64,000 nucleotides of DNA from Malania oleifera (taxonomy: Eukaryota > Streptophyta > Magnoliopsida > Santalales > Ximeniaceae). The stretch is from assembly GCF_029873635.1 (NCBI RefSeq), contig NC_080421.1:42017120-42081119 (forward strand), read 5' to 3'. The position numbers and the translations under genes were made by a program. This document shows, in pieces, positions 6,033-54,589 of the stretch. The first letter of the stretch is position 1, and each line of letters opens with the position of its first letter. Below the pieces are notes generated by a model that saw nothing but the letters and a program-made list of their open reading frames with translations, was not told the origin of the DNA and made no database searches.

Positions 6033-8422
6033 TGTAACGACTTGAAGAATAATGATATTTAAATAATAAAAGAAAGGGAAATGGAAACAGGAGCAGAATG
6101 AGGCAGTCAACTTCGTCGACGACATTGCATTTTGGATTTCATAATCCCGAGAAATTTTTCAGCTCCTTATCAACAAATACAGGGGACTCGTCGACGAGGA
6201 CAGGATTCGTTGACGAGAAGATACTGAGAGAGAATTTGTGGAAGCATGAAATTCGTCGACGAGGGTTGAAGTTCATCGACCAACTTTCTATAAGACTCGT
6301 CGACGAGGTGACGTGACTCGTCGATGAATCCCGCAGTATAAATAGGGTTAAACGAGAATTTTCAGTCATTTTCCTACGCCGAATTTCTCTCTCTCTCTTC
6401 TCATATGGTTTCTCCTCCTTCTCACTAAGATTTTGGGCCGGATTTCCGCTGGTTCGACGATATGAAGCCACCACGACGCTCCTAGAAAAGTTCTCTGCAA
6501 GTCTGCCGAAACGGATCATCGATGGGGCTGAATTGAAAACCATCTCAAATCTAGGGTAAGACTTTCTACTCAATATTTGGTTAATTGACAATTGTAGGAA
6601 GTGATATACGCGTAGAAATACTGAACTTTAGTTCTAGGGAATGCTGTTTCCAGGGTGTTGAGTTGGGAACCCTACGGGTGCGGGACAGATTTTCTTAGGG
6701 GCTTTTCAGGAATCAGGTAAGGGGATAAACTAAGCTAGTATTTTATGAAAAATATGTATATTTTTATAGCATTTGATTTTAGGAAAATAAATATATTTAT
6801 ATATGATTTATATTTGGGAAAATGCTGTTAAAAGTGATGATATGTTAAATATACGAAAAACTTGTTTAGTGTGGCATAAGTAGAAATTAATATGAAACAT
6901 TGTTTCTAGAAATGTGTTAATGATACGGATTTTTATAATGGAAAACCGGAGTACGGGCCAAGATTTTTATATTTTTGTCAGCGTACGGGTTGAACTATAG
7001 ATATATTTTGTTGGCATACGGGGGTGCTATGTGTATGATTTGTCGGCGTATGGGTCTTACTATGCGTATGCTGTGGAAAACCGGAGTACGGGCCAAGATT
7101 TTTATATTTTTGTCAGCGTACGGGTTGAACTATAGATATATTTTGCTGGCATACGGGGGTGCTATGTGTATGATTTGTCGGCGTATGGGTCTTACTATGT
7201 GTATGATTTGTCAGCATACGAGCTGAGCTATGGATATATTTTGCCAGCGTACGGGTCGTGCTCTGGATGTGATTTTCCAGCGTACGGGCTGAGCTATGTA
7301 TATGATTTTTCGGCGTACAGGCCGAGCTATGGATGTGAATTGCCAGGGTACGGGCTGTGTTTTGCTATGATTTGCGGGCGTGCTAGCCGAGCTATGGTAA
7401 AATGTGAAATACCGGCGTACAGGCCGATGATTTTTCATGATATACGTATATATGCAAAATGATATGATTGATCTGATAATTAATGATATGAGATATCCAT
7501 GTATCACAGTTTCAGCATATGTTATATGATATCAGAACCTTGTTGGTTTGGTTTAGGCTAGCACTTGCATGGTACCATTGCTATGTGTCCATGGTCATTA
7601 TGATCATGATATCTGTGTTAACGCCAATGTACGGAGTGGTGTGAGATTGGATGGTCGATGTGATTTTAAGAAGTGTGTGAGCGCCCTTGGTGTACGGACC
7701 ACGTCTGGCAGACCCATCACACTTACAGACTTTACTTTTGACTTGGCAGTGGTCGGCCAACCATTGTCAGTTCCCGCTTTCGGGCCACACAACCCAGTCA
7801 TGTGGGGTTAATACATGACAACAGCTAACTAACCTACCAGAAATGTTTTTGTATTATTATTATATGAGATAAAATATGTCTATGAAAATACAGTTCTGCC
7901 ATGTTTTGATGATATATATGTTTTCCCAAATTTGACAAAACAGTTACTGAATATGTTCTGTATAATATATGTATAATACAGAATACTTATGTTGCCACAC
8001 ACTAATATTAGTTTATTTCCCTTACTGAGAGGTGTCTCACCCCAAAATTTTATAAACTTTTTAGGAGCCTCAGATAGGAGAGCGGGAAAAGCCCCGCTGA
8101 TCTAGTGTTGGTTGTCTGCCCTCTTTGAAGGGTAAGTTTTAGTAGGGACAATTGGATTTTGTGGGAAATGTCCCTAGATTTTGTTTTTGGGATGTATATA
8201 CTGAAATACAGTGGATATAGTGACTCTGGTATTTATGGTAATGTGATGGATGTTTTCATATTTATAATATTGTGATTGTATGTTTCCTACTACTTAGGCT
8301 TCCGTTACGTGTTCTGATGTATCTCTGGTACCCACGGGTCCAGGGGAATTATGATCTGCTAAGTTGAGTTTTGTGATTTTGTAATATTAAAAAAAATGTG
8401 AAAATTAAGCAGGTCGTCACAA
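6033..8422 (+). mobile_element. Ty3/gypsy-type solo LTR (2.39 kb) inside Copia-A
   Basis: It starts TGTAACGACTTG and ends GGTCGTCACA, with an exact target duplication ataat (6028-6032 and 8423-8427). The left part (6113-6330) is an array of about seven TCGTCGACGA-like near-palindromes. A TATA-like ATAAATAG at 6340-6347 follows, then a splice-donor-like region, a minisatellite (6940-7420) and the conserved CTTACTGAGAGGTGTCTCACCCC block at about 8020-8042. The layout parallels the solo LTR at 29576-31759, including GGAAATGGAAAC near the start, so both belong to one broad family. No coding domain is present. Confidence 0.85.
6940..7420 (+). repeat. Minisatellite within the LTR (CGTACGGG-type units)
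   Basis: A segment of about 134 bp starting GAAAACCGGAGTACGGGCC is directly repeated (from about 6941 and 7075). The whole stretch is also an array of roughly 35 bp units, each with a core like GCGTACGGGCTGAGCTATG. Open frames here give repetitive peptides (SAYGLxYxY) that simply reflect the tandem array and should not be taken as genes. Confidence 0.85.
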
Positions 8423-15654: not shown

Positions 15655-17704
15655 TGATGTAATTAGTGTATTCCCAAGAGGATGTGAATTGTATTTCAAA
15701 AAATTATTCCTAAGTTAGGTATGTTCAGTGTTAAGCCATAAGTAAAATATTGCACAACCCAGGTTCTGTCTAAGCAAATACCAACTATCTAACAATATAA
15801 AACTGAGCAGATAAATAAAACAGATAAAGCAAACTCAGTACTTCCCAATCATTCACAATAATAAAGATATAAACAGTCAAGTGCTAAAATTAAATAACAT
15901 AGACAAGAGAAAGCAAACAAAATATTTGTTATCGAGGTTTGGTCAAACTAGCCTACATCTCCGGCTCAAGCTAACCAGCAAGAGGATTTCACTAATTCTC
16001 ACTTAACGGGTGGAGCGACACCAATTACAATCTCTTCTTCTTATTAGGCAAGGAATACCCCAACTCACATTCATAAGATTGAGCCCAACCTATAACTACA
16101 CCTTACAGGACAGTCATCCTTGTTCTCCTAATCGGGTCTGAACCAATCTAGTGCACATCTTACGGGATTGTGTAAATCCTAACTTTCCTAACCAGGTCTA
16201 AACCAATCTGAGACTTTCTTAACTGGGTTTAAGTCTATCTGGGACTTTCTTAAAATGGCGAGTCTCTCTCTTCAGGCCACACCTAGAATACAACGATATA
16301 AAATATTTTTCGTACAAAGAAATGCTTCTCAAAAGCAAAGATGTATAAATTTAAGCACTAGATGCACTCACACATGATATGAATTAAAGCTCAAGTGAGT
16401 ATGGGTGTTTTTCTCAAAAATATTTTTGTAATCTTTGAATAAAGATATATATGGTAAGCACTTCAAAGATTTAACCCTAAAAGTATTTCTCCAACTATAT
16501 AGCTCAATGAAATCTTGCAATGGAAGTGCAAAAGATTCACAAGTAAGAATATGTTTCTCCAAAGATATTTATCAAGGAAATATGTGGAGAAGCTCAAACT
16601 TTACTCTCAAGGAGTGATTTTGAAAAATAAAAGTAAATAAGCATGGATGATTTTTTTTTCTATGAAAAATCAATGCCCAAAGTAAATGCTCTCTTTAAAA
16701 TATTTTTGAAATGATAAGTATAAGAGAGTATAATACAATAAAGCACAAAAATAATTTTGGGACAATTATATTCTAAGCATTAGTTTTAAAAATGAGTATT
16801 GAGGGTGTATTTATAGTTTTTTTTTTGAAAATATAACCGTTTAGGGGCACGAAGGTCATTTTGAAATTTGTTTAATTAAAATTTAACCATGTTTAAGCGT
16901 TGGAAATTACCAAGACCCAAGAGGTTCGGTCGGCTGGTGCTAGTGCTGGTCGGCTGACCTCACACAAAAAAAATTGAATTTTAAAGGGGGTTTAGTCGAC
17001 CTAGAGAGGTTTCAGTCAGCCAAGCCAAAAGGCGATTCCAAACCTTCGTAGGTTCGGTCGGCTGAGGTCTAGGGCCGGTCTGCCAGGCTTGGTGACCGAT
17101 CGGTTGAGGGCCTTTTTGAACTAATTTGGCTAGTTGATCAAGCCTTTCACTTTGGTCAATTTTATTAGGTCGGTCGGCTAGGCATTTTAGTTTATTTTAG
17201 GGTTGGTCACCTGAACATGATAAAATTACAATTTCGCCCTCGGGGCATGGTCGGTTGGCTGAGGTTTTTAAAACATGAATAGGTCGGTCGACCGTGCCTA
17301 GTTAAGAACTCAAGTTTGGCCTTATTTTTTATCCTAAATGATTTAAACCTTTTTGTATGATTTTAGTTGTTTAGAAAAAGGTTTTTCTTTTACTGTGTTG
17401 GGTGCCCTAAGGTTAGTTTATGGTTATTTTGAGCTTTCATCCACATCATGCATGCAATGCATTATTACAAACCAAATATAAAAACTAAATGCATTACAAA
17501 TGAAAACCAAACGTCTTCTTCTTCTTTTGCCCTTCATTCTTCATGGAATACGCCAAACTGGTATGATATTTACGTCCTTTATGGCTCCCATTTTCAATCA
17601 CCTTATGTGTGTTGAATTATAAACCTATTTAAACACTAAATACACACATAAGTAATTTGTGTTTTGTCAATATTAAAACAAGGATCAGACTCAAAAAGTC
17701 AACA
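15655..17704 (-). mobile_element. Solo LTR of a SIRE-like Copia element, reverse orientation
   Basis: The element starts TGATGTAATTAG and ends AAAAAGTCAACA, with an exact 5 bp target duplication ctctc at 15650-15654 and 17705-17709. Its left end, read on the minus strand, resembles the end of the LTR at 19870-19923 (CAATTCAC, TCTTGGGAATT), so it is an inverted relative of that SIRE-like LTR. A cluster of GGTCGGTCGGCTGA-type repeats lies at 16920-17300. It has no coding domain. It is 2050 bp long. Confidence 0.8.
16920..17300 (-). repeat. Array of GGTCGGTCGGCTGA-like short repeats in the solo LTR
   Basis: About eight to ten degenerate copies of a motif such as GGTTCGGTCGGCTG or GGTCGGTCGACCG are spread over 380 bp. 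Some copies are near-palindromic. The position within the LTR corresponds to the array of TCGTCGACGA motifs in other LTRs of this window. Confidence 0.7.
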
Positions 17705-17999
17705 CTCTCTGTGCCCAACTTCAAGCAATTGGGTGGTCTGTTGATGACGCAGACATGGTACATTAGTTCCTCAGAGGTCTCGGCTCGGAATTATTGAGTT
17801 TTTCCATGACACAAATGACTATCACCCTGTTACCTTGTTTCTCCGATTTGATACCCAAAGTCGAGAGCTTTGAGCTTTTTCAAAAATCATTGGAATCTGC
17901 CTTACCCCTGTAGAGATTTGAAGAATTATAGCAGTTACATAATAAAAAAAAAAAAGAGGAAAATAGGAAAATTTTTAAAGGGGATTTACAGGGTCTCGT

Positions 18000-18510
18000 C
18001 GACGAACACAGGACATTCGTTGACGAGCATCCTTCTTGGGTTCGTCGACGAGGACATTTAGCATGCACGGAAGTTGAGAAAGTCATAAAAGCCATGAGGA
18101 TTACAACCAAGAACAACTCATGGAACTAAAAGAGTAGAAGAATGGAGATGCAAGCGTCAAGTTTAAGATAGTCATGGGAATAGGTATTTGGATTTCATTG
18201 TATTTACATAACTTATATGATATAACTAGAAGCTCAAAATCATACCTTAGACTGACCTTAGGACACATGCTTATCATGAAGAATTTATTTAAAAGATTCT
18301 AAGTTAAACTGAATTTTGGAAGTAAATTTTTAGAGGTCTCGTTGACGAACGCATGAAGGCCACTTGGCGATGAATACCTTATTTTCGTCAACGAGAAAAT
18401 ACCGAGAGCACAAAAATTTCAGATAGGTCTCTCGTCGACAAACTTAGGATCACGTCTATAAACAAGTGTTAAACACTCGTTGACCAAGGTGTCCTCTCGT
18501 CGATGAATGT
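18000..18510 (+). repeat. TCGTCGACGA-type near-palindrome array in the SIRE-like LTR
   Basis: About nine copies in two clusters (17996-18050 and 18335-18507), for example CTCGTCGACGAACAC, TTCGTTGACGAGC and CTCGTCGATGAAT. The same motif fills the start of the gypsy-type LTRs at 6033 and 29576. Confidence 0.8.
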
Positions 18511-18908
18511 CGCACAGAACTGCGATTCAGCGGGGATACACATGGAATTTCGTCCATTTAAATTAATCTAACGGCTGAGATTAAACCTAGGGTCAAGAAC
18601 TTATATAAAATTAACCTAAGAACCCTAGTGCCTCACTTTTTGCCAAATATTGAGAGTCTTGAACGTTTAGCACAACTTGGGAGGGCATTGAACACATTGT
18701 TGAACTCTTGCTTGGGATTTCAAAACATATACATCAAATCTGAGCTAAGGCTACATTGATTTTCAAAAGGCATTCTAGTGATTGTTGTGCATTCAACTTG
18801 GTATTGAGGTTTGGTAAATCGATCTATTTGTTATTACTTATTCTCAAAGAGTTTTTCATCTCAAAAATTTATCATTGAATATTAATTGAGAGATTGATCT
18901 TGAGTGTA

Positions 18909-18949
<41 letters not shown>
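18909..18949. repeat. (TA)n microsatellite
   Basis: About 20 TA units in the SIRE-like LTR. Confidence 0.95.
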
Positions 18950-18953
<4 letters not shown>

Positions 18954-20279
18954 CGAAAAGATCACTTCTGGAGAAAATTCTGCCAAAGGTTGAATATTTT
19001 TTCAAGTGTTTATTCATTTAAAGACTCGATATTTTCGATATTACAAAACCAATTGATTAAATATCCTAAGAGCTCATAAATGTATATTATTGAGGGATAT
19101 TTTCTGAAAAATATTATATTAGGTTTTTGATATTTGTAACACATTATATATACATATTCATATACAAAGATCATATTGTGTTTTGTATATTTGGAATAAA
19201 ACTAATCGATCTAGATTTTTGGAGCAAAACTGAATTACATATATGTATTGTGATCATTTAGTTGGATTCAATATTTGAAGCAGAATATTTTTTTTAACCA
19301 AAGATTATTTAGAGATTTGATTGACCACATTACATACACTCATTGAGCTTCAAGTTTTATCATATGAATGTGTGTTAGGAGTTTCTATTGTACTCATCAG
19401 CTTGTGTAGAAGTATTATTGAGTTTTTGCAGAATAGTTATATTGTAATCCCCCCCCCCCCCACCTATTCGAGTTGTGAACTGGTGGTTTGAGGAATGAGA
19501 GTGTATCTATTGTAAGCCAGCAGATTAGAGGAGTTGTCCCCTGCCTCGTGTAAAGCAGCGGAGTAAGGGAAGCCTGTCCGAGGTAAGGAGTAGGATTTTA
19601 GTGGAATTATTGAGTGGGTTGCTCATGGTGAGACGTAGGCGCGTTGGCTGAACCTTATAAAAATTGTGTTTGCCTTCTTCTTCCTTTCTCCTTTTAATTT
19701 CTGCCCAACGCATTTCTTAACCTATCTTGCATGTGTCTGTATGTTGAATAACCTTACAAGCACTTGGTAATTAATTGGGTATCATGAATATAAACTTATT
19801 GGATTGAATTAATTCAACCCTGGTGATTGTCTAGTTAAATCTTAATAAAAAAGGATATTGAAGAAGTAAAATTAAAAATATTTTTTCAAAATACTCAATT
19901 CACCCCCCCCTCTTGGGAATTCACTTGTGGTATCAGAGAGAGGTTTACTAGACTTCATCGTTTATTTTTGTTTAAAAACAATCACATGACAACATCGATT
20001 GTTAAACTCCATTCGATGAGGGAGGTCCACTAGGACCCCCATCTTCTGTGGTGTAATTGACTCTTACTGAAACGTAGGAGATGAGTATATACCTGTTAAA
20101 TGTAGATGAAAAGTATGGAAAAATAGTTTAAGGGGAAACCATGTTTCCCATGAACTGGTATTGTTTAGTTGATAAGGTAAATGTTTAAGATAAAGATGAA
20201 TATCCAAGGAAGCTGCGAAATTTGGCAAATAAATGCTAATGCAATGAAAATCTGCTATTATGTGACTAGATGTAAAATG

Positions 20280-20815
20280 AGTATAGTAGGGTGATGGCCT
20301 AACACTGCTAAAGAGATTTGGGAAAAGTTAGAAGTCACATATGAAGGTACTAAGGAAGTAAAAGATAGTAGGATAGACATGCTTACTAGTCAATGTGAGG
20401 CATTTAAAATGACTGTTGATGAATCTATTCAATCCATGTACACTAGATTCACACATATCACGAATTCTTTAAATGCTCTTGGTAAATCTTACCCTACTTA
20501 TGAGTTGATCAGGAAGATACTTAGGGGACTACCGTTAGTTTGGGAAGCTAAGGCCACTGCAATAGTAGAAGAAGGAATCTAAAGGAGATGTCGATTGATG
20601 AATTGATCGGTTCGCTTATTACTTATGAACTAGCTATAAATGAAAGGAAGAATGAGAAAAACAAAACTAAGAAAGTTACAGCGCTTAAGGCATCATCTAA
20701 CAGTTCCAGTGAGGGAAGTGATTCAGAATCAAATGATAACATGACGCTTATCACTAAGAAATTCGGAGAGTTCATGAGAAAGAACAAGAAGTACACCAGG
20801 AAATTCAAGGGCTAA
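20280..20815 (+). pseudogene. SIRE-like gag region
   Basis: Two adjoining open stretches carry the gag core (VKDSRIDMLTSQCEAFKM, YELIRKILRGLPLVWEA) and a lysine/serine/acid-rich tail. The particle-forming role is inferred from the family. It stops where gypsy-type sequence begins at about 20822. Fossil. Confidence 0.75.
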
Positions 20816-20821
20816 AAAATA

Positions 20822-21573
20822 GTCGTGCGACGGTCCTACCTCCTAGCATTCCATGTAACCTCTGCCATAAACTATTGGGTGAAGTCCCGAAATGCTACAA
20901 TAGAGTCACTGCCACCCTCACTGGCAACTCCCTCACTGCTACTGCCACCAGCATTGGCAGTATTATCTCTGGATTCCATCTTGAAGAGACAAATGAGAAA
21001 ATTGTTTAGAACCTTAGTACCTTACGTATCTGCTACAACTACAATACCATAAGACTTTAATAATTTATCGCTCCTAATGATGACATACTCTACCAGTTTA
21101 CTACTTTCATTCTAACTCAAGTTCCGCCCCTCCACTTGGAAACAAAACCGTCAATGGATTGCCGTAATTTTCTGAATCCGTCAATTGATCTGGAAAAACA
21201 CAAACCGCCAATGGAATTTCTATCTCCAGGCTTACGAAGCAAAACTCAACATTCCTATTCTACCCATTCCTATCTTCCTATACTTTGGTATTACCTCATA
21301 ACCTCGTCTAACCAAGTTTACAAGACCTAAAAACCTGATTAGCTCTGATACCAACTGTAATGCCCCCCTTTCAGGCATTGTCACTTTCCTTACGAGCCTT
21401 GCGCCCATGGCAACAACGGGTACCTATTAGAGCACTCGCTGTGAGTGGGGGACATTAGCTGCCCTAAACTAGTAAGCCCCCAAGCAGAGAGTCCTACTTC
21501 ATCACAATCATTCATAAGAAAGAGTTTCCGGGGATTGGGATACATTAGTTTTCCCTTTGCTTTGATACCATAT
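20822..21573 (-). mobile_element. Ty3/gypsy fragment: gag start, primer site and LTR edge
   Basis: On the minus strand this resembles the gag N-terminal region of the chromodomain gypsy element at 55380-55620 (shared GGTCCTACC, CTGCC and GGATCC-like landmarks in the same order). It is followed at about 21344-21357 by the reverse complement of a TGGTATCAGA primer site. An LTR-like edge TGTAATGCCCCCC begins at 21357. A second reversed primer-like site (TTTGATACCATAT) at about 21561-21573 abuts the Cassandra LTR. A patchwork of 5' ends of minus-oriented elements, all broken. Confidence 0.65.
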
Positions 21574-21891
21574 TGTAACACCCCAAACTAAGTCTGCCAG
21601 GGAGCACTGCGTTTCTCCTCCTCCACTTGGACTAGACAACAGGGGGCGGGCTTTATTGGACTAATGAATTGGCCCACAGACAATACGGTCCTTTCAGTGT
21701 AGGTTGTCCTCATTCACACCCACTTCATGAGAAAACTTACTAGAAGGTCACCCGTCCCAAGATTACTCTAAGCCAAGCGTTGCTTAATATAGAGTTCGTA
21801 TGGGAAGGCTCCCGAAAATAAAGGTACACTTGTTGATATGGGTAATAATGTCAAAAATCCTTTGAAGTCTCTCTTCACATGAGGTATCACA
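21574..21891 (-). mobile_element. Cassandra TRIM LTR, inverted (copy 1 left)
   Basis: Read on the minus strand the LTR runs TGTGATACC...GTTACA and contains a 5S rRNA-derived domain (about 21729-21800: reverse of GCTTGGC..., GGGACGGGTGACCTTCTAG). Cassandra elements are known for carrying such 5S-like promoters in their LTRs. It is the inverse of the LTR at 24123-24434. Confidence 0.85.
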
Positions 21892-24122
21892 TTTGGTAGC
21901 AGAGTCCCGAACTAGGAAACTAAGGAAATTAAATAAAAAGTAAACCAAGGGTTTCAACAAATTTGTCATGAGGTCCCTGTTCTCGCACGAAGTCCCAAAG
22001 TGGTTCGTCCACGAAATTAAGAGGCTTCATCGACGAAGAGATCCAGACGTTCGAAAATTACATGCTTAGGGATTTCAAAGACGTTCCTTATTTCGTCAAC
22101 AAACGACATCAATAGCTCGAGGATGAAGGCGCCATTCGTCGAAAAAATTTTTAACGGGTCAAAGGCTCTATAAATAGATGTTTTTTTGCTTCTTCACTAA
22201 GAAATATAATTTATCTCTCTCTCTCTCTCCTCTCGCCTCTCTCTTCTTAACCCACACCCATGGCTCTCTCTCTTTACGATTATTGCGCTTCGTTGACATA
22301 TTCGACGAAAGGAAAAGGAAGTTATATAGGAGGATTTAGGGGGAGATTCTAACAAGTCTAGAGGAGCAGATCTTTGGATTTGAGTATTTCAGGCATTACT
22401 CCAAATTCAAGGTAAGTAGGTTTTAAGGGCTTATGGTTGTTTGTGAAATATAGGAAGGATTCTTAGGAAATGATTAATGGTAGATGATCTAGTGTTGTGT
22501 TGATTTATTTGGGAAAAGAAAAATTGTGGTTGTAGGATTTTGAACTGCAAACACGTAAGGCGTGGAGTTGTTTCTCGTGGGCTTTTTGTAAGCAGGTAAG
22601 GGGATTTGTCTTACATCAATTATTTTTGAAATCGAACTGGTTTTAAAACTATATTTATGATTTCGGGGGCAAAATTAGGGTTTTGGGGTGCGTAGGCGTC
22701 TCCGTTTTTCTTTAAAACCTATGTATTATTATTAGATTAAAAGGTGAGATGTGAAACTGTGTATGTAAATGTAGTTTGCAATTTTTTTTAGGTTTTTTGA
22801 TTATATTATAGCATTTTAATCAAATGAAGTGTGACATGATTATGGTTCATGTAAATGAACTACGATTGTGGATATTTAGGATCAAACATGGAAACTGGAC
22901 TTCTCAAATGTTTTCAGGGAACCTTGTTAGAAACGAGATATTGGGTTAACACAGAGGGCGTGTGTGTCGCCTGCTTGAAGTGCTGAATGAATGAGTGTGA
23001 AAAATACTAGAATTGTTTTTAAATGCGTTATGGAATGAAAACAAGTACTGTGCTTCGTTAAATGGTATATATGATGTATGAACCACCTAAAGGATATTGG
23101 TTACTATGAAATACGGTCCGTGGCTAGTGGGTGATAACGGGCAATACACACCTTATCGTAAGGGCCGGTATCTAAAAAGTCGATTGGTCACTGGCTTGGG
23201 TGTTTGGATCAAGGTGGGATATGACCAAGGTGGACGGTAACATCGAGGTGATTATACTGGTGGGCCACCAGAGCTAGATCAGGTCTACCGGATCGCACAA
23301 CTTTACCCTGGGGGAATAAAATGGGGTTTATGTGGGTGGTCCTAGGTAGGGATGAGTTCAAATATTGCATAGACACTGATTTAAAAATAAAAAAAATGGG
23401 CAGAGTTTATAGCTTTGAGTACTAAGCTTCATAGGGGATTTTACAGTGTATGGGTCTAATCCTACCCCATCTGGAACTCCCATGGGAAGGCATGAATTTT
23501 ATGCATATTGTCTATAATAGGGTTGAGAATGTTAACTGCGGTAATTCATGTTCAGTTAAAACTTTCTACTATTTTTTTTTGGAATCAACTCATTGTTAGT
23601 CACACCTGAGGGAACTATTATTTAACTTATAAGAAGTGTCTCACCCAGATATACAAATCTTGTTTAGGTGCCACAGAAAACCGGATTCCCCCCCCTCTCT
23701 TCCCTCCTCCCCCCCCCCCCTTCTCTACTTCCCCCCCCCCTCCTCCCCACTCCCTTCCCTCCTCCTAGCGTTCTAGTGGGTTTGGAGCGTAGTGTTTTTA
23801 GGAGTCCCCCTTTTTAAATACTCGTGTAAGTACGGGACTATGGTCAGATTATCTTTTTGGGGTGAAATAGAAACATTGGAAGCATTTTTAATAGTATGAA
23901 CTAGCACTCTGGTATTTATGGTTATTGTGGAGATTGAAGCTTTTCGCTACTTTATTGAATTGTTAGTTATGGCCATAAGGAACCATGAATCTTCGGGATT
24001 CAGGGACCTCATATTAGTATTCGAGCGCCTTACCCAGTGGAAAGTGTGATGAGATTCAATCGCCTGAGTGTGGAAATGTGGGTTTGCAAAAAGGATGTGG
24101 TGTTCTGTTAAGTGGGGGCGAA
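21892..24122 (+). mobile_element. Gypsy-type LTR body between inverted Cassandra LTRs (copy 1)
   Basis: It begins with a degenerate primer-like site (TTGGTAGCAGAGTCCC) directly after the Cassandra LTR. It continues with TCGACGA-type motifs (22000-22145), a TATA-like CTCTATAAATAG (22168-22179), a (CT)n run, a GTAAGT-type donor near 22411 and the conserved block CTTATAAGAAGTGTCTCACCC (about 23627-23647). It ends in a purine tract before TGTGATACC. No coding domain. LTR ends were not resolved. A C/T-rich run at 23688-23766 has no match in copy 2. Confidence 0.6.
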
Positions 24123-24434
24123 TGTGATACCTTGTGGAAGAAAGGCTTGGAAGAATTTGATGTTATACCCATATCAACAAAGGTGTACCTTTATTTTCGA
24201 GAGACTTTCCAATAAGAAAAATCATGGTAAGCGTGCTTGACTGGGTAATCTTCGGGAGGAGCTGACCTTCTAGGAAGTTTCTAGGAGTGTGTGAGACGAT
24301 AAAAAAACACTAAAAAGGATATGTGTTGGTGTGTGGGTTCCAGTCCTACCAATACGGTCTGCCCTATTGTCTGGTCAAGTGGAGGAGAGAGAGATGCAAG
24401 TTGCTCCCTAGACCAGCCCTGGTTTGGAGTTACA
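24123..24434 (+). mobile_element. Cassandra TRIM LTR, direct (copy 1 right)
   Basis: The LTR starts TGTGATACCTTGTGG after a purine tract and ends GGAGTTACA. The 5S-like domain is at about 24215-24290 (GGTAAGCGTGCTTGACTGGG, CTGACCTTCTAGGAAG). It matches 28460-28776 in copy 2 and is the inverse of 21574-21891. Confidence 0.88.
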
Positions 24435-25243
24435 TGACGGACGCCCTTGTCGGACGACATACGAAGTCAACATTTGCCTTAGCCGACATGTTATAATATG
24501 GAAGACTTAAAATGCCCTTTTGTTTGTTGCTTCGTAGGAATTCACTGGAGGAATCTAGAAGACGTTTTCAATGTGCGAAAGGCCCCAGAAGAGATCTTGA
24601 AGCCAATTGAGATCAGAACCCCTTGTGGGCCCACGTGGGCTTGTGGGCCCCACCACTATCCATTGGGCCTTCCCCTATTGGACTATTGACTTTGTTACAT
24701 TTAATATGTAGCTTGCAAAACAGTTTGCTTCATTGCGGTGGTCTTGGAAAGTTGTGTTTAGTTAAATTATGTTTAGTTCTTATAGTGTTTAGAAAAATAG
24801 GGCGTCTACTTATGTTTGAAGTGTGAGTTTTGTTGAGAGTGGTAATTTTATTTATTTTTTCCCCATGCCACGCTTAAGGTAGCTAACTGTTGTGTTTCTC
24901 CACTTTTCAATGCCAAATCTAGATATTTATACCATTGTAAATGTTGTTTTGAATCGTAGTTAGTAAGAGTTAATATCTTGTTATCAATAAAGACTTTGTC
25001 TTTGTGAGCTTGTAAAGCTTGTTCCGATTCTTGTGATGAGTGGCGAAGGAGGCTACCAGTCATTTCCTCGGAGATCAGTGGTGCTTGAGACCAATATCAC
25101 TCTCAAGCCCGTCACCTCATATTTCATCATCACGTCTCCATCCATCATAAACAGCCACCAACAAGGTTACTCCCCACAACCAACAATATCAAGTTCAGTT
25201 TGCTACATACATACATACATATATTAATATATATAATATGATA
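24435..25243 (+). other. Intervening segment of the tandem unit (copy 1)
   Basis: Non-coding. It contains GTGGGCCCCACC-type stretches (24625-24655), a possible poly(A)-region context (AATAAAGACTTTGTC near 24985-25000) and ends in CATACATA/TATA simple repeats. The look is that of a further LTR fragment, but no ends were found. It recurs at 28777-29575. Confidence 0.45.
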
Positions 25244-26017
25244 TGTGAGCAAACCGAATTTAATGGGATATTTACTCATAAAGAGGAAGACGGAATGGAA
25301 ACGAAAGAGAAGGAGTCAGTTAGTTGCTTTGTCGACAACACGCGAAGCGTGTCATCAACGACGTTTGCATTATGGAAGGATAGAAACGGAGGGAAGCGTT
25401 ACCAGGCCTCGTCGACGAAACACGGCATTGGTGATGAACACAGGGGTGGGATTCGTCGACAAGAGGTTAAAGAGGAAGTCATAGACCACACACGGAGATT
25501 TGTGAGAAGGCATACATAAGAGGATTCGTCGCGAACACAGGGGATTCGTCAACGAGAAATACCGAAGAGGGGGTTGAGCCCAATTGCATTCACGATGAGC
25601 GAATGATTTTTCAATGAAATTTCATAAAGGATTCGTCGACGAATGCGGTGTATGTTTCGTCGACAACGTTGTTATATATATATATATATCAAAATTTCGC
25701 ACATTTTAACTTCATTTAAGTAATCTTCGCCTTCTCTCGATCTCCTCTTCGGCTCTCTCTCTTCCTCCTCTATTTCTCATCATTTTTGGGCGTAGATTTA
25801 TTGTCGTATCAACAACCAAAGGGTCACCAAGACGCTCCGGGGGAAGTTCCTCCAAATCCGGCCAAAGAGGATAGTTTGGTGAAGCCGAGTGGGAAATCAT
25901 CCCTGAGGTGAGGTAGGTTTTTGTAAGTCATGAATCTGGTCTGTGATAGGTATACGCATGATGTACATGTAGAACTAAGAAGTTTAATACTGGATTTCAA
26001 GTTTTCAAGGGTATTAT
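25244..26017 (+). mobile_element. Gypsy-type LTR, left part only (copy 1)
   Basis: It begins TGTGAGCAAACCGAA and corresponds to the first ~750 bp of the solo LTR at 29576-31759. TCGTCGACGA-type motifs lie at about 25330-25665. It ends at the joint with the second tandem unit. Confidence 0.8.
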
Positions 26018-26335
26018 TGTAACACCCCAAACTAAGTCTGCCAGGGAGCACTGCGTTTCTCCTCCTCCACTTGGACTAGACAACAGGGGGCGGGCTTTAT
26101 TGGACTAATGACTGGCCCCACAGATCAATACGTGTCCTTTTCAGTGTATTTTGTCCTCATTCACACACTTCCTGAGAAAACTTCCTAGAAGGTCACCCGT
26201 CCCAAGATTACTCTAAGCCAAGCGTGCTTAATCATAGAGTTCTTATGGGAAGGCTCCCGAAAATAAAGGTACACCTTGTTGATATGGGTAATAATGTCAA
26301 ATCCTTTTTAAGTCTCTCTTCCATGAGGTATCACA
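26018..26335 (-). mobile_element. Cassandra TRIM LTR, inverted (copy 2 left)
   Basis: Reverse-oriented LTR with TGTAACACCCC at its left edge. The 5S-like domain is reversed at about 26171-26243 (AGAAGGTCACCCGTCCC, AGCGTGCTTAA). It is immediately followed by the primer-type site TTGGTATCAGAGTCCC at 26337-26352. Confidence 0.87.
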
Positions 26336-26655
26336 TTTGGTATCAGAGTCCCGAACTAGGAAACTAAGGAAATTAAATAAAAAGTAAAAAAGGGTTTCAA
26401 CAAATTTTGTCGATGAGGTCCATGTTCTCGTCAACGAAGTCCCAAAGTGGTTCGTCACCGAAATTCAGAGCTTCATCGACGAAGAGATCCAGAACGTTCG
26501 AAAATTATCATGCTTAGGATTTGTCAACGACGTCCTTATTTCGTCAACAAACGACATTCAATAGCTCGATGATGAAGGCGCCATTCGTCGAAAAATTTAA
26601 CCGGGTCAAAGGCTCTATAAATAGAATTTTTTTTGCTTCTTCACTAAGAAATATA

Positions 26656-26696
<41 letters not shown>

Positions 26697-28459
26697 ACCC
26701 ACACCCATGCTCTCTCTCTTTACGATTTCTTGCCGCTCGTTGACATATTCGACGAAAGGAAGTTACTATGAGGATTTAGGGGGAGATTCTCTACAAGTCT
26801 AGCGGAGCAGATCTTTGATTTGAGTATTTCAGGCATTACTCCAAATTCAAGGTAAGTAGGTTTTTAAGGCTTTATGGTTGTTGTGAACTATAGGAAGGCT
26901 TAGGAAATGATTAATGGTAGCTGATCTAGTGTTTGTGTTGATTTATTTGGGAAAATTGTGGTTTTAGGATTTTGAACTGCAAACACTGTAAGGCGTGGAG
27001 TTGTTTCTAGTGGGCTTTCTTGTAAGCCAGGTAAGGGGATTTGTCTTACATCAATTATTTTTGAAATCTGAACTGGTTAAACTATATTTTATGATTTCGG
27101 GCAAATTAGGGTTTTGGGGTATGGTCTCCGTTTTTCTTTAAACCTATGTATTATTATTATATTAAAAGGTGGAGATGCTTGAAACCTTGTTTTATGTAAA
27201 TCGTAGTTTTGCAAATAGTTTATTATATTATAGCATTTTTAATCAAATGAGTGTGACATGATATGGTTAATGTAAATGAACTACGATTGTGGAATATTTA
27301 GTATAAAACATGGGAACTGGACTTCCAAATTGTTTTCAGGGAATTGTAGAAAACGAGATATTGGTTTAAAACCGAGGGCTGTGTGTGCCTGTTAATGTTG
27401 ATGAATGAATGAGTTTGTGAAAAATACTAGAATTGTTTAAATGCTTTATGGAATGAAAACAAGTTACTGTGCTTTCGTTATAAATTGTATATATGATGTA
27501 TGAACCACCTAAGGAATTGGTTACTATGGAAATACGGTACCGTTGCTAGTGGGTGATACAGTGCAACCACACCTTATCGGTAAGGGTGGGTATCTAAAAA
27601 GTCGATTGGTCACTGGCTTTGGTGTTTGATCCAAGGTGGGATATGACCAAGGTGGACCTGTAACATCGAGGTGATTATACTGGTGGGCCACCAGAGCTAG
27701 ATCAAGTCTACGGACCGCACAACTCGTACCATGGGGGAAGTAAATGGTGTTTATGTGGTGTTCCTAGGTAGGGATGAGTTCAATATGCATATACATGATT
27801 TAAAAATAAAATGGGCAGAGTTATAGTTTTGAGTACTAAGCTAAGGGATTTTACAGTGTATGGGTCTATATCCTACCCCAATCTTGGGAACTCTCACTGG
27901 TAATGCATGAATTTTATGCATATCTTCTATACTATAGGGTTGAGAATGTTTTAACTGCGTAATTCATTTCAGTTAAACTTACTACTATTTTTTTGTTGGA
28001 ATAAACTCATGTAGTCACACACTGATGTAATATTATTTACCTTACTAAGAAGTGTCTCACCCAGATATACAAATCTTGTTTCAGGTCCTACAGAAAACCG
28101 GACCTAGCGTTCTAGTGGGTTTTGGAGCGTAGTGTTTTTAGGAGTCCTTTTTTAAATACTCGTGTAAGTACTGGACTATGGTCAGATTATCTTTTTGGGG
28201 TTGTAATAGATACATTGGAAGCATTTTTTTAATAGTATTAACTTAGCACTCTGGTATGGTATTTTGGAGATTGAAGCTTTTTCGCTACTTTATTGCATGT
28301 TATTTATGGATAAGGCAACCATGAACTCTTTGGGATCAGACCCTCATATTTATGTATTAGAGCGATTACCCAGTCGAAAGTGTGATGAGATTCACATCGC
28401 CTGAGTTTGGAAATGTGGTTTCGCAACAAGGATGTTGTGTTCTGTAAGTGGGGGAGAAT
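26336..28459 (+). mobile_element. Gypsy-type LTR body between inverted Cassandra LTRs (copy 2)
   Basis: Parallel to 21892-24122. It has a primer-like site, a TCGACGA motif cluster (26405-26590), TATA-like CTCTATAAATAG (26612-26623), a (CT)n run (26659-26694), a GTAAGT donor-like site, the conserved CTTACTAAGAAGTGTCTCACCC block (about 28041-28062), and a purine tract GTGGGGGAGAA at 28449-28459 before the Cassandra LTR. No coding domains. Confidence 0.62.
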
Positions 28460-28776
28460 GTGATACCTTGTGGAAGAAAGGCTTGGAAAGAATTTGATGT
28501 TACTACCCATATCAACAAGGTGTACCTTTATTTTCGAGAGCCTTTCCATAAGAACTCCATGGTTAAGCGTGCTTGACTTGGAGTAATCTTGGGATGGGTG
28601 ACCTTCTAGGAAGTTTTCTCAGGATGTGTGTGAGTGACGATAAAAAACACTAAAAAGGATATGTGTTGGTTTGTGGGTCCAGTCATTAGTCCAATAAGGT
28701 CTGCCCCTTATTGTCTGGTCCAAGTGGAGGAGGAGAGATGCAATGCTCCCTAGCAGACCTAGGTTTGGGAGTTACA
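28460..28776 (+). mobile_element. Cassandra TRIM LTR, direct (copy 2 right)
   Basis: 317 bp, TGTGATACCTTG to GGGAGTTACA, directly after a polypurine tract. The 5S-derived domain (28551-28620) is the clearest of the four copies in this window. Confidence 0.9.
28551..28620 (+). ncRNA. 5S rRNA-derived domain of a Cassandra LTR
   Basis: The segment AGAACTCC, GTTAAGCGTGCTTG, GGATGGGTGACC, AGGAAGT follows the order and spacing of the 3' half of plant 5S rRNA, including the region of the internal RNA polymerase III promoter. It is not a standard 5S gene: it sits inside a retroelement LTR and departs from the 5S sequence at several places. Related copies lie at about 24215-24290 (direct), 21729-21800 and 26171-26243 (inverted). 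Whether any is transcribed cannot be told. Confidence 0.82.
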
Positions 28777-29534
28777 TTACGACGCGTGGACGACCTCCGA
28801 AAGTCAACATTTCCTTCGCCGACATGTTATCATATGGAAGACCTTCAAATGCCTCTTTTGTTTGTTGCTTCGTAGGAATTCATGGAGTATCTAGAAGACG
28901 TTTTCAATGTGAGAAAGGCCCCAGAAGAGATCTTGAAGCAATTCTGAGATCAAGAACCCCTTGTGGGCCCCACGTGGTCTTGTGGGCCCCACACTATTCC
29001 ATTGGGCCTTCCCCTTTGACTATTGACTTTGTTACATTTAATATGTAGCCTTGCAAAACAGTTTGCTTGCATGTGCGGTGTCTTGGAAGTTGTGTTTAGT
29101 AAATTATGTTTAGTTATTATCGTGTTTAGAAAATAGGCGTCTTTATTATGTTTGAAAGTTGTGAGTTTTGTTGAGAGTTGTAATTTTATTTATTTTTTCC
29201 CCCATGCCAGCTTAAGTTAGCTAATGTTGTGTTTCTCCCCTTTTCCATGCCAAATCTATATATTTATCCATTGTAATTGTTGTAATCGTAGTAAGAGTTA
29301 ATATATTGTTATTCAATTAAAGACTTTGTCTTTGTGAGCTTGTATAAGCTTGTTTCGATTCTTGTGATTGAGTGGCGAGAGGCTACATTCATTCTCCTCG
29401 GAGATCAGTTGGTGTGAGACCAATATCTATCAAGCGATACCATTCATTTCCATCATTCACGTCCTCCATCCATCATCCACACAGCCACCACCAGGTTACT
29501 CCCCACAACCAACAATATCCATTTCAGTTGCTAC

Positions 29535-29575
<41 letters not shown>
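28777..29575 (+). other. Intervening segment of the tandem unit (copy 2)
   Basis: Counterpart of 24435-25243: GTGGGCCCCACGTGG-type stretch at 28963-28990, AATTAAAGACTTTGTC near 29315, then CATA and a (TA)n run (29547-29575) into which the next solo LTR is inserted. Non-coding. Confidence 0.5.
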
Positions 29576-29579
<4 letters not shown>

Positions 29580-29654
29580 ACAACCCGAATTCTAATGGGA
29601 TTTAAATCATAAAGAGGAAGGGAAATGGAAACCGAAATAGAAGGAGGCAGTTGA

Positions 29655-29970
29655 CTTTGTCGACAAACGCGAAGCGTTCATCAACGACGTTGCATTTTGG
29701 AAGGAAGAACCGAGGGAAGGTTACCACGGCCTCGTCGACGAACACGGCCTTGTTGATGAACACAGGGGATTCGTCGACAAAGGTATAAGAGAATTCATCG
29801 ACAAACACAAGGAGATTTGTCGACGAAGGCATAAGAGGATTCGTCGACGAACACAGGGGATTCGTCAACGAGGAAATACCGAGAGGGGGTTTGAGCCAAT
29901 TGAATTTCATCGATGAGGAATGAATTTTTTCAATGAAATCATTAAAGGATTCGTCGACGAATGACGTGTT
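29655..29970 (+). repeat. TCGTCGACGA near-palindrome array
   Basis: About a dozen copies in 315 bp, such as CTCGTCGACGAACAC, TTCGTCGACAAAG, TTTGTCGACGAAGG and TTCGTCAACGAGG. Spacing is irregular (about 15-35 bp), so this is not a simple tandem repeat; the repeated entity is the 10-12 bp motif. The TATA-like and CT-rich parts of the LTR follow. Confidence 0.88.
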
Positions 29971-30754
29971 TCGTCGACAAAGCTTGTTATATATATATAT
30001 ATATCAAAATTCGATTTTTAACTTCATTTTTAAGTAATCTTCGCCTTCTCTCTCTCTCCTCTTCGGCTCTCTCTCTCTCTCTCTCTCTCATCATTTTTGG
30101 GCTAGATTTATGTCGTATCAACAATCCAAAGTCACCACGACGCTCCCGGGGAAGTTCTCTCCAAATCCGCCAAAGCGGATCGTTGGTGAAAGCGAGTTGG
30201 AAATCATCCCTGAGTTGAGGTAAGGTTTTTTAAGTAGAATTTGGTCCTGTGATAGTTATAAGAAATGATGTACATGTAGAAATACTGAAGTTTAATACTG
30301 GGAGTTTCAAGTTTCAGGGTATTGATCAGGAAATCTTACGGGGGTCAGGTTAGGATATTTTAGGGGCTTTCTCAATAGCCAGGTAAGAGAATAAATTAAA
30401 GCAGTTATTTTCCATACAAATTATTATTAATTATGAGTAAATCTATTTTCAGAAAAACATATGTTATATCTGTTTATTACGAATGAAATGTATAATTGGG
30501 AAAATACTGCTATGATGATTAAAATGTATATGTATGTATGAGATGCCAGAAAATCACGATTTTAAAATATGAAGTATGACTTTTAACAGCACATGTGTGA
30601 CATGAATATTATTTTACGTGAGATGTATTATGATATGAAAGATTTTACGAGCAAAGCATGTTTTCAGGTATTATGAAAAGATGAGTTATGTTGTGATGAT
30701 TTCGATGAATATATGATAAATGATTTATTTTCAGAATGTATATACCTGAAACGA

Positions 30755-31826: not shown

Positions 31827-32785
31827 TATACATCAATATATCAAAGTGTGCCCAAAGGACTCCAGAAGTGTTCTAACTTGTGGAGAAAATCATTAAGGCA
31901 TTCTTCAAAGTTCGTGGTGATTTCGGTATTTGCTTGGACCATCCCAAGTATATAACAACTTCATTACAACTTCAAAGCTTGATAAGGGGATTTCAAAGTA
32001 TAATCTGAATTTGTGTGAATCAAACCGAGCCATTCAACGATTTACCTTGGTAAGATTCTTCCTAAACCAACCTAAAATTGCTTGAGAATCTTTGTTTAAA
32101 GTTCCATAAGCATTTGTTGAGAAACAATCTTGAATCCTCGCATTTTCATTCAATCCCGTAGCAAGTCAGTCAACTGACCCTAATGGTCAGTCAACTAACC
32201 TTGTATTGACTCTCGGTATTTTGTCCAAAATCTTAGTCAGTCGACTGAGATCCTTTTGTCAGTTGACTGACCCAACACTGCCACTCCAGAAATATGTTTT
32301 TAAATTCTTTAGGCAACTGATCCTTGATCCACAATCGACTGTAGTTACCCAAATTATGAAATTTCAATATTATTTCACATTGTTTGAGTCCTTGCTTAAT
32401 CTTGTGTAAGCCCATGCTTGAAACTTGAACTTCCATGATTTAGAAAGCATATTTGAGCTATTTTGATTTTCCATATCAATACTTGCTAGCTTGTAAATCA
32501 TTGGGAATATTGCTTGCTAAGTTTAGAATTTTATTCTTGAAATATTGAAATAACATCTTTTCGCATTTTAACCTGATATCTTTCTGAAAGAATCATTTGG
32601 GACTTATTCCTGGATAGCATCATACACCTTTTAAAAATCCTAGAACAATTGAAATGTCCTCTAATTTAATGTGTTTATGTTAATTAACTGAATTCTTAAT
32701 TTAAAGTATCTTGAGTGTGTATGCTTGCTTGTGAGGGTTGAAATTGGTAGGACTAGGTCACCTTATCCTGTCCTGCATCAACTTG
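31827..32785. other. Unassigned LTR-like non-coding segment with GTCAGTCGACTGAC motifs
   Basis: No coding domain. A cluster of CAGTCAACTGACC or CAGTCGACTGAGA-type repeats lies at 32163-32270, resembling in style the motif arrays of the SIRE-like LTRs here. The segment probably belongs to a Copia LTR nested in Copia-B, but its ends were not found. Copia-B sequence resumes at about 32790. Confidence 0.45.
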
Positions 32786-48838: not shown

Positions 48839-50776
48839 TGTAACGCCCCGACCCTCTAGGTGGGCCCGGAGTGCCACTAAACATACATAACATGCAGATC
48901 TCTGATACCATACATATACAACCTGCCCAAATAAGGGAAAACGGGTGTTCCATACTGATCTGCATAATCATACATAGCGGAAAACATAAACATACATCTT
49001 CTAATAAAAATTTACTAGTCTCTAACTATTTCCTCACATACATCCATGCGTACTAAACATAACCTGCTATTACAGTTCCCCAAAAGACAACTTGGCCAAA
49101 GCCTGGTGCACATGTACAATAACTTAAATAAGCTAACAAAAACACTACGCTCTAGAATGCTAGGACCGGTTTCCTGTAAGACCTGAAATAAGATTTGTAT
49201 ATTGGGTTGAGACATTTCTCAGTAAGGTAGATCATATTACATTAGTGTGTGACAACATGATTTTATTCCAGTAGAAAACAATTACACATTTAAGTCATTC
49301 ATAAACCTGTAATATAGAAGATATATACAAAATTCCTGCATAAGATAATTCGGTTCATTACAAGCGAGAGTCCCCGAGGTTGGGGTAGGGTACATGCCCA
49401 TACACTATACGATCCCTCGGCTCGGTACTCAAAGTTGTAACTTTGCCCATTTTATTTTTAAATCATGTATATGCATAATGAACTCATTTCAGCTTTGGAA
49501 CATCATAATTACACCATTTACTTCCCTCATGGCACGGGTTGTGCGTTCATAATGCTTTGATCTAGTCCCGGGGTCACCAGCTAGTCACGCTACATTCTCC
49601 AGTCCAACTTGGCCCACACCATCCTGGTCCGTGATCAACCAGTGGCCCTTCTTACCAAGTTGACTAGCTCGATACCCATACTCAAGAATAACATGTGGTT
49701 GCACTATACCTTTCATACTCGCAACGGTACCGTGCATTCCTGGTAAGAAGCTTTCTCAAGCGGTTCATATATCATATATACAATTTATATCGAAAGCACA
49801 GTAACCTGTTTTCATTCATAAAACATTTAAGCAGTTTCAGTGTTTTTCATATTTCATTCATTTATTGGCATAAACTGGCACACACAGCTCTCGGTTTAAC
49901 CTTGGTACATACATAGCTCGGTATTTAACCGACATCTCTTTCCACATTTCTTGATAAGCATTTTGGAACTCCAGTTCCCATATTGCATAATCATATTTCT
50001 CAGTTCAGTATATTTCCATTTAACATCTCATGCCACACTCATTTGGTTTAAAAGCATTAACACAACATATGGTTCGTAAAATATAGTTTAAATTGAAAAC
50101 AAGGGTTTCAAGCATCTCCTACTTTAAGTATAATACCAATGAAGGAGTTTTAAAAAGATTGGAGACCATACCCCAAAACCCTAGTTTTTACCAAAATCGT
50201 AAAACCAAAAAAAACCGACAATTCCACTTAGTGAAATGTTCCAAATAAGCAGTCATATCGTACATAATACCATAACCTGCAGTTCTAGCGGATTTAAAAA
50301 ATGATTGATGTAAACAAATCCCCTTACCTATTTCCGGAAAAACGAACCCGAACGGCTCGAAACCCTAGAACTTCTAATCGGTGAAAACACGCGTACTTGC
50401 TCAACTAAGGGTGTGAGAGGCAACCGAAAAGCAAAGAAGAGCTCGGAAAGGCTTTTTGGTGAAAAAAGTTTCGAAATCCTAGGAGAGAGAAGAGCGAGAA
50501 TTGAAATTCTCTTTTTTAAAATGAGCTCAAACCTATTTATAGGTGAGTAGGCCCAAAGGAAAACTGACGCCGGTTTCCCCTATATCTACAAAATCGTCAC
50601 CGGTTTTGTGGTTGATTGGCCCGGCTAACCCAAAACTGTGGTCGGTTTTCTTCTGGCTCACAAAACCGTTGCCGGTTTGGGTCCCCACTTTTCACATTCC
50701 TTCTTTTTATTTTCTTATCCTTTATTTCTCTCTTTTATATTCATTTTCTTTTATTTTTCGGATTCGGGTTCCTACA
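48839..50776 (-). repeat. 3' LTR of the gypsy element
   Basis: 1938 bp. A TATTTATAGG signal at 50532-50541 would, on the minus strand, be CCTATAAATA, a promoter-like TATA. It also carries the shared CTCAGTAAG...TTAGTGTGTGAC block (49218-49252, reversed relative to the plus-strand LTRs). Confidence 0.88.
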
Positions 50777-51079
50777 ATCTCTCATCCTTACACAAATTTC
50801 GTCCTTGAAATTTGCCAACTGTTACTAAGCATGCTCTATTCTTACGACTCAGATTTACAGAAGAGTCGGCAGCCACCCACATAGAGGCTCTGACCCAAGT
50901 TTATTACATACCCTCATTTATGGTGGAGGAATACCGTGGTTATAACATAATGTCTCGGGAGATTACAATATCCATACAAAACCCTCCCAGAGACCATGCA
51001 TACTCTAAATCATAAACAACCTACTCTACCCAATATACGTACAAACCTCACACTTACCATTCCACTTACCTGCCTAACT

Positions 51080-51275
51080 CCGAGCATTTCTGAATAATTA
51101 AGGATACTTCTGACATATCTTTGACTTTAATTCCCATGATGCTTCTTCCATAGCGTGATTACGCCACAATACTTTCACTAATGGTATCTCCTTAGTACGC
51201 AGTTTCTATACCTTCTGATTCAGAATCTGAACCGGTACCTCCTCGTATGCTAACGCATCACCGATCTCCAGAGGT
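51080..51275 (-). pseudogene. Chromodomain region of the gypsy element
   Basis: Minus-strand reading gives EEVPVQIL, then LRTKEIPLVKVLWRNHAMEE and ASWELKSKI, the usual C-terminal chromodomain layout of plant Tekay/Del elements, right after the VHDVFHVSVLKKYVSDPSHV segment of integrase. Chromodomains direct integration toward heterochromatin. Fossil. Confidence 0.8.
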
Positions 51276-51894
51276 TCATAACTTAGCACGTGCGAAGGGT
51301 CTGACACGTACTTCTTCAGCACTGACACGTGAAACACGTCATGAACTCTGGATAGTGCTAGGGTAACCCTACTCGATAAGCAACTGGACCTATCTTTTTC
51401 AGGATCTCAAATGGCCCAATGTACCGAGGGCTTAACTTCCCCTTCTTTCCAGACCTCATCACCCCTTTCATCTGGGCGATCTTCAGGAATATCATATCCC
51501 CTACCTCGAACTCTAATTCCCGTCGGTGACTATCTGAATAACTCTTTTGCCAACTCTGTGCTGCTCTGATCCTCTCCTTAATAAGTTTGACCTTTGCAAA
51601 GGTCTGCTAAATCAGTTTCGGTCCTAAAATCTACCGCTCGCCTACCTCATCTCAGTATATTGGAGATCGACATCGGTGACCATACAAAGCCTCATATGGT
51701 GTCATCTCTATACTGGCCTGGTAATTGTTATTATACGCGAATTCTACGAGCGGTAGATATTGAACCCAACTGTCCCCAAAATCCAGCACACATGCCGGCA
51801 ACATATTTTTTAAAGTTTGAATAGTCCTCTCGGATTGTCCATCCGTCTGCGGGTGAAACGATGTATTGAATGTGAGCTGCGATCCTAAGGAATC

Positions 51895-52652: not shown

Positions 52653-52659
52653 TGTGTTA

Positions 52660-54144: not shown

Positions 54145-54186
54145 CTCTCTCCCGTGGCAATCAATGCTAGCATAATTAGCTGATAA

Positions 54187-54507: not shown

Positions 54508-54589
54508 CCTTGCTTGGGTTGTACCCCTCTAGTATCCACCACGTGGCACCTAAGTAACTCCTCTATAAGGCTGCTGTGGGAATGTGTTG

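Follow-up and report, generated by a model that had tools for sequence, protein, structure and literature searches.

The closest described counterparts of the array reported here are the RM boxes of Sireviruses, palindromic repeats of the long terminal repeat (LTR) that lie shortly before a conserved TATA box and were reported as Sirevirus-specific and absent from classic copia elements (Bousios et al. 2010, PMC2829016). According to the available part of that paper, in which gypsy LTRs do not appear among those tested, 3' LTRs carry 8-14 RM copies in 11 of 13 elements and three and four copies in the other two, and the Sirevirus primer binding site (PBS) is 9 bp long. The palindrome clusters of maize Sireviruses are also located in the cis-regulatory region of the LTR (Bousios et al. 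2016, as described in PMC5311732 and PMC10760457). Their palindrome differs from the 10-bp palindrome TCGTCGACGA studied here, and the accessible portions of these sources report no gypsy carriers. One of the maize motifs occurs in Helitrons too (PMC10760457).

Three further systems share single features with the present array. In wheat, the ~162 bp LTR segment QuinCent is common to the gypsy element RLG_Quinta and the copia element RLC_Gisela, and an exchange was proposed (PMC11302176). The points in common with the present case are the sharing between gypsy and copia and the cryptic inverted-repeat structure of QuinCent. As far as the available text of the report goes, however, QuinCent is homologous throughout and linked to centromeres and the placement of nucleosomes, whereas in the present case only sites, spacing and a box are alike. 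The VANC target arrays of Arabidopsis VANDAL elements likewise consist of a dense short motif in non-coding mobile DNA, evolve by tandem repeats and offer a model for an array-reading factor; they differ in having one orientation and a known binding protein and in not belonging to LTR retrotransposons (PMC5735166, available part). The CpG islands in LTRs of gypsy Del elements are also CpG-rich, length-variable and located in the 5' part of the LTR, but the accessible section of the source names no palindromes, and eudicot Del elements are described there as lacking the island (PMC4029996).

The array resembles the RM boxes in being a near-perfect, CpG-rich palindrome present in many copies in the upstream half of the LTR, before the TATA box, and the Vitis Sirevirus RM, CGGTCGACCG, has the same GTCGAC core as TCGTCGACGA (PMC2829016). 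It lacks the CGG-CCG signature, as does one of the 13 published RMs (Tnd-1), and, unlike RM boxes as described in the available part of PMC2829016, it has a fixed spacing and a common central box. The restriction to Sireviruses does not hold here: the same palindrome, spacing and box were found in Ty3/gypsy LTRs, with which most of the module carriers sampled group, and a feature published as Sirevirus-specific is thus widened to a second superfamily. The sequence-only reading had proposed the array as something not described. That proposal needs narrowing, since palindrome arrays before a TATA box are published for Sirevirus LTRs; what looks new is a single architecture of eight sites and a box in both Copia and Ty3/gypsy LTRs. 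Among the open-licence papers listed, judged by title and the start of the abstract, none described this palindrome or box in LTRs, or its combination with the eight-site layout and box in Ty3/gypsy elements.

Two joined LTRs in the interval 18000-18510

The window, i.e., the whole 64,000-nt stretch of the Malania oleifera genome analysed, has 29 sites that equal TCGTCGACGA or differ from it at one position, against 0.19 expected and a maximum of one in 100 shuffles; 7 of them fall at 17996-18506. Every site has three CpGs and the core CGTC-GACG. Eleven matches are exact and 18 carry one mismatch, which is C-to-T or G-to-A in 17 of the 18, all such motif positions lying inside CpGs, as expected of decayed methylated sites. 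The stretch 17996-18506 proved to be two LTRs joined, not one array. The features on both sides of the junction are as follows.

17909-18055, + strand: 5' start of an LTR of a family designated X (TGTAGAGA...), cut off at the junction; palindromes at 17996, 18017 and 18042
18056-18060, no strand: point where the X LTR meets the Copia LTR; the 5 bp ATTTA overlap and occur in the relatives of either LTR
18056-19923, + strand: Copia Sirevirus-like LTR, the first 87 bp missing; run of C at 19903-19910; 3' end set by reading
18320-18506, + strand: Copia eight-site module; sites start at 18320, 18339, 18364, 18385, 18432, 18452, 18477 and 18497
18395-18408, + strand: central box GAAAATACCGAGAG, directly after site 4
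18602-18609, + strand: TATA-like sequence in the Copia LTR, 95 bp beyond its last palindrome
19931-19938, + strand: primer binding site TATCAGAG of Sirevirus type, last base of the 9-mer changed
20295-20579, + strand: Copia-type gag fragment (PF14223, Retrotran_gag_2, E 3e-17)

A genome search with 18000-18510 returned 41 matches from the 40 candidates scored out of 3,769. Leaving aside the window's own match and a second piece, all 39 places listed start at query position 57, i.e., at 18056. In all seven Copia relatives fetched, the LTR reaches 87 bp further upstream, to TGTTGACT or TGTCGACT (L002 has a second LTR-start sequence 23 bp beyond the first), and a PPT or near-PPT precedes the LTR start in five of the seven. 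In the window, these first 87 bp are replaced by 17909-18055. Part 207-356 of the query 17700-18055 is matched at 85-90% by other places in the genome, which represent relatives of the X LTR. One of them, L059, contains eight sites with start-to-start steps of 21, 25, 21, 46, 21, 25 and 21 bp followed by a TATA box; the other four fetched (L060-L063) have 4 to 6 sites. The X-family flanks join the gypsy-type LTRs termed class A below by single linkage, an assignment made from flanks alone. A continuous array over 18000-18510 was therefore rejected, the sites at 17996-18051 belonging to the X LTR. The motif had been placed as a whole in the LTR preceding the Copia primer site and gag; this is correct for the sites at 18339-18506, while those at 17996, 18017 and 18042 lie in the X LTR. 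The join at 18056 demonstrates that unlike LTRs do become joined in this genome and may itself be a dead rearrangement.

The Sirevirus-like Copia LTR

The LTR of the best-preserved relative, L008, is 86% identical to the window LTR over 18056-19918 and retains eight sites (up to 2 mismatches) with steps of 21, 25, 21, 47, 20, 25 and 20 bp. The window module has lost the site at 18320 (7 mismatches) and scores 80, against 20 or less in 10 window shuffles. The check proposed in the sequence-only reading came out positive, as relatives carry the array at the same place: in all seven fetched, sites (2 mismatches allowed) occupy +278 to +471 relative to 18056, including L005, where a stricter cluster scan found a run of only three. 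The TATA box stands 95-99 bp after the last palindrome in six of eight Copia copies, compared with 9-11 bp in the box loci described below.

The coding regions combine the window gag with a pol found in L065, upstream of the L007 LTR, where SH3_retrovirus (ORF 394-1335) is followed by RVT_2 (ORF 2022-2549); the integrase thus precedes the reverse transcriptase, as in Sireviruses. An RNase H-like ORF was recognised by eye in L007, with no Pfam match. The PPT AGGGGGAGATTG (AGGGGGAG plus AT/TG) is present in four of the seven relatives (L005-L008), with a second AGGGGGAG in L006 and L008 and a one-base variant of AGGGGGAGATTG in L002; L003 and L004, presumably 5' or solo LTRs, have no PPT before the LTR. 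The PBS region reads TATCAGAGC in L005 and TATCAGAGA, one base off, in the window, where it follows the C-run at 19903-19910; TATCAGAG was not found in the fetched DNA of the other six relatives. By its gag/pol domains, PPT, PBS and polyC, the window Copia element is classified as Sirevirus-like.

The Copia array is more decayed than the gypsy-side arrays. Among existing Copia copies, identity at the CpG positions of the sites is 0.67, against 0.95 at A/T positions and 0.89 in the spacers. The CpG positions decay fastest, and dead copies thus show no protection of the sites. Such decay is what would be expected of dead, methylated copies, and selection, if present, would act on active lineages only. 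Copia elements are a minority carrier of the module, since none of the 26 modules from pair-pattern loci fell in the Copia group and none of 40 box loci was a full match to the Copia LTR, two of them (L071 and L080) giving short matches only.

Architecture and abundance of the module

The module consists of eight copies of TCGTCGACGA arranged as four pairs. In regular arrays, the start-to-start steps are 19-22 bp within a pair, 24-25 bp between neighbouring pairs and 44-51 bp across the middle, where a 14-bp box, GAAATACCGAGAG (form G[AG]AAATACCGAGAG), directly follows site 4; a TATA box lies downstream, the RNA probably starting shortly after the module. The eight-site module finder, which permits set spacings only, detected 51 distinct modules in the window and the fetched loci with scores of 50-133, against a maximum of 20 in 10 window shuffles that preserve 2-base blocks only. 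Because the spacings are built into the finder, the evidence for spacing comes from the genome pair listing and the array scans. By strict single-linkage clustering of flanks, 29 of the 51 modules formed one group. Among 34 box matches (up to 2 mismatches) in the window and fetched loci, 29 have a palindrome (up to 2 mismatches) directly before them.

The survey covers one genome, of 1.49 Gb. Exact TCGTCGACGA occurs 132,361 times, against 1,383 for the reversed pattern, a control that has no CpG and is not composition-matched as the palindrome TCGACGTCGA would be. Pairs of TCGTCGACGA with 5-35 bp between them number 28,616, against 0 for the control, and the first 100 of these listed on contig 1 have spacers of 9-11 bp (52), 14-16 bp (22) and 33-35 bp (26), with no other class among them. 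On contig 1, the first 100 TCGTCGACGA sites span 1.08 Mb and fall into 44 clusters, extrapolated to ~61,000 clusters genome-wide. An exact scan of IMG/VR for the motif plus box gave no match.

The box core AAATACCGAGAG occurs 8,066 times in the genome, against 126 for its control. From the first 100 boxes on contig 1, 40 loci were chosen by hand, mostly away from places with known motif sites; in 38 of them, a palindrome (up to 2 mismatches) lies 2 bp before the 12-mer AAATACCGAGAG. A TATA box was found after the last site in 27 of the 40 loci, at a distance of 9 bp in 20, 11 bp in 6 (26 together) and 30 bp in one; in the remaining 13 none was found.

An ACGT-core element, GGTGACGTGGC with its variants, a G-box/bZIP-like site, recurs in the spacer between sites 7 and 8 of many class A modules (e.g., at 6307-6317). 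This is the spacer nearest the TATA box, and the element was not seen in the eight Copia modules.

Modules in Ty3/gypsy LTRs

Further modules of the window are listed below, the first two corresponding to the gypsy LTRs with which the Copia array had been compared in the sequence-only reading.

29795-29980, + strand: gypsy-type class A LTR module, score 112; box at 29872-29885
6145-6327, + strand: class A LTR module that has lost sites 1 and 2; TATA box 9 bp past the final site; superfamily assigned from flanks
26407-26594, + strand: module of a third LTR type (GGGTCAAAGG-CTATAAATAG downstream), from the module scan
21962-22145, + strand: degraded copy of the module at 26407, in the preceding 4.4-kb repeat unit, from the module scan
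25409-25598, + strand: rearranged, poor-fitting copy of the 29795 array, score 58.6, partly in register

Superfamily was established from coding domains in three loci. L055, a relative of the window LTR at 29.6-30.4 kb, encodes SH3_Tf2-1 and Chromo upstream of the module and on the same strand, i.e., an integrase with a SH3_Tf2-1/GPY-type C-terminus and a chromodomain before the 3' LTR, as in chromoviruses; L031 has SH3_Tf2-1 only, with no Chromo match. L064, a gypsy-type element, carries the array in both LTR regions, at 307-495 (eight sites) and 6881-7022 (six sites), flanking Retrotrans_gag and RVP_2. L064, L055 and L031 are accordingly classified, by these domains, as Ty3/gypsy, and the other class A modules are gypsy-like by flank similarity alone. 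ORF 1-312 of L027 and the integrase-core ORF of L055 gave no Pfam match at 0.001. Within one gypsy family (L051-L058), the number of sites varies from 5 to 13.

Three loci considered as further Copia carriers were rejected: L011, with a Copia gag-like ORF beside the module, L028, with a Copia-like ORF, and L037, with a Copia RT-like ORF. In each, strand or distance points to a nested element. L066, which spans the DNA from L033 to L037, contains no nameable ORF.

The modules from 21962 to 29980 lie in two head-to-tail units of 4.4 kb (21571-26015 and 26015-30323), which are 86-89% alike; either unit has two arrays and 300-bp inverted repeats. Near 21571 and 28457, the 300-bp stretches seemed to resemble 5S rRNA, an impression that had no Rfam support and was discarded; the Rfam scan gave only four weak, below-threshold microRNA matches, on the AT repeat at 29517-29590.

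Comparison of Copia and gypsy modules

The eight Copia modules were compared with 23 of the 29 class A modules, namely those scoring 95 or more. Identity was 0.73 at the sites and 0.74 in the box, the latter biased upward because orientation was set by the box, against 0.35 for the shuffled box (maximum 0.57). The rest of the central spacer was 0.20 identical, and the other spacers 0.18-0.41. In the modules oriented by their coding regions (L055, L031 and L027), the box agrees at 12, 13 and 12 of 14 positions, respectively. Against a second gypsy class (class B, 6 of 9 modules), box identity was 0.55, compared with 0.33 for the shuffled box (maximum 0.50), and the spacers reached 0.20-0.34, with 0.43 in the seventh.

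When the Copia LTR was compared by BLAST with two stretches of the window and with 22 gypsy-side loci, of which two overlap, matches were confined to 18339-18413, the exception being three pieces in L056, which probably represent a separate Copia remnant beside a gypsy LTR. The stretch 18384-18408, comprising site 4 and the box, matches 29861-29885 over 25 bp at 96%. The likeness between Copia and gypsy therefore consists mainly of sites, spacing and box, most spacers being unlike; with most spacers at background identity, no gypsy piece was inserted recently.

The module is thus common to a Sirevirus-like Copia LTR family and to Ty3/gypsy families, among them a chromodomain element and a second gypsy type. 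The proposal that the same motif is densely arrayed in LTRs of both superfamilies is supported, and the likeness extends beyond the motif, since 29795-29980 and 6145-6327 have the eight-site layout and the 14-bp box as well.

Origin and possible role of the module

The preferred reading, to which a probability of roughly 0.55 is assigned, is that of a promoter-proximal LTR control module exchanged long ago between the superfamilies and kept by selection. The module would act as an enhancer or core-promoter array, bound cooperatively by a hypothetical dimeric, palindrome-reading nuclear factor; a pair distance of about two DNA turns suggests that such binding is cooperative and takes place on one face. 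It may have passed between superfamilies by recombination or template switching between LTRs, after which selection for transcription would have kept it while the rest of the LTRs diverged.

The weak point of an old exchange is that background-identity spacers fit convergence equally well. Convergence is the less probable of the two, yet it deserves weight: Copia and gypsy LTRs would each have built the array by tandem duplication, with one host factor, or such a factor together with a partner at the box, rewarding the geometry and without any exchange. Arrays can evidently grow and shrink, as the 5 to 13 sites of the L051-L058 family indicate. However, a 14-bp box at one offset, the order of the pairs and the 25-bp match between 18384-18408 and 29861-29885 are much to reach twice, and old exchange is favoured over convergence, in our estimate, at odds of about 2 to 1.

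A structural role of the kind proposed for maize Sireviruses, in which the palindromes would fold as RNA or DNA hairpins and feed small RNAs or mark the LTR, the spacing being a by-product, appears improbable. The two modules folded as RNA did fold better than their shuffles (z -3.24, with 0 of 200 shuffles as good, and z -2.90, with 1 of 200), and the palindrome regions of maize Sireviruses are described, in the available parts of the sources, as small-RNA hotspots (PMC5311732, PMC10760457). But good folding is to be expected of any array of palindromes, the folds predicted for the two modules are not the same, and folding needs neither exact spacing nor a non-palindromic box nor a set distance to the TATA box.

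The insertion of a gypsy LTR piece into the Copia LTR, one of the explanations offered initially, is very improbable and was rejected for the array at 18339-18506. At 18056 the Copia LTR does adjoin a piece of a foreign LTR that has three sites, but this piece (17909-18055) lies outside the Copia LTR and ends in a cut-off junction rather than an insertion; the main array occupies the same place in 7 of 7 relatives, and the gypsy LTRs tested are unlike the Copia LTR beyond 18339-18413. A neutral minisatellite grown by slippage and carried passively would account for the differing site numbers within one family, but can be practically dismissed, as spacer sequences differ between units and families while the spacing is quantised and the positions of box and TATA are fixed.

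If unlike superfamilies do share one promoter module, a single factor would link their bursts, and exchange would join mutation in shaping the control regions of LTRs. A further step, which we consider doubtful, is that one fixed-geometry module has spread across the Copia/gypsy border and that tens of thousands of elements answer to a single palindrome-reading factor. Such a factor might be an anti-silencing protein or a regulator of the host. It may even recognise the site in its methylated form, given that the three CpGs of every site decay in the manner of methylated CpGs; methylated GTCGAC would resemble the W-box core GTTGAC, and LTRs could then fire from methylated chromatin. The ~132,000 exact sites form an unusually large natural test set in which spacing, site number and box can be related to the age and activity of elements.

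Other repeats in the window

A second near-palindrome array, around the Vitis Sirevirus RM CGGTCGACCG, was observed at 16927-17294. Genome-wide, CGGTCGACCG forms 6,678 spaced pairs, against 0 for the control, with start-to-start distances among the pairs listed of mostly 24, 31-33 and 39-43 bp. Palindromes of the TCAGTCGACTGA type, in pairs 21-22 bp apart, occur on the minus strand at 32167-32270; genome-wide there are 23 exact pairs, against 3 for the control. A single spacing rule for all GTCGAC-centred palindromes was dropped, as CGGTCGACCG pairs are spaced differently and TCAGTCGACTGA pairs are rare. A box-like stretch (32210-32223, one mismatch) lies between two TCAGTCGACTGA-type pairs and, given the rarity of the exact pair (23), may be due to chance.

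A minus-strand element at 48839-57924 has LTRs at 48839-50776 and 55955-57924 that are 91% alike and contain no TCGTCGACGA within one mismatch; a gypsy RT-like ORF was recognised in it by eye at 53101-53739. Downstream of the class A module at 6145-6327, a tandem array with units of ~33, 66, 99 and 135 bp containing CAGCGTACGGGC extends over 6939-7397.
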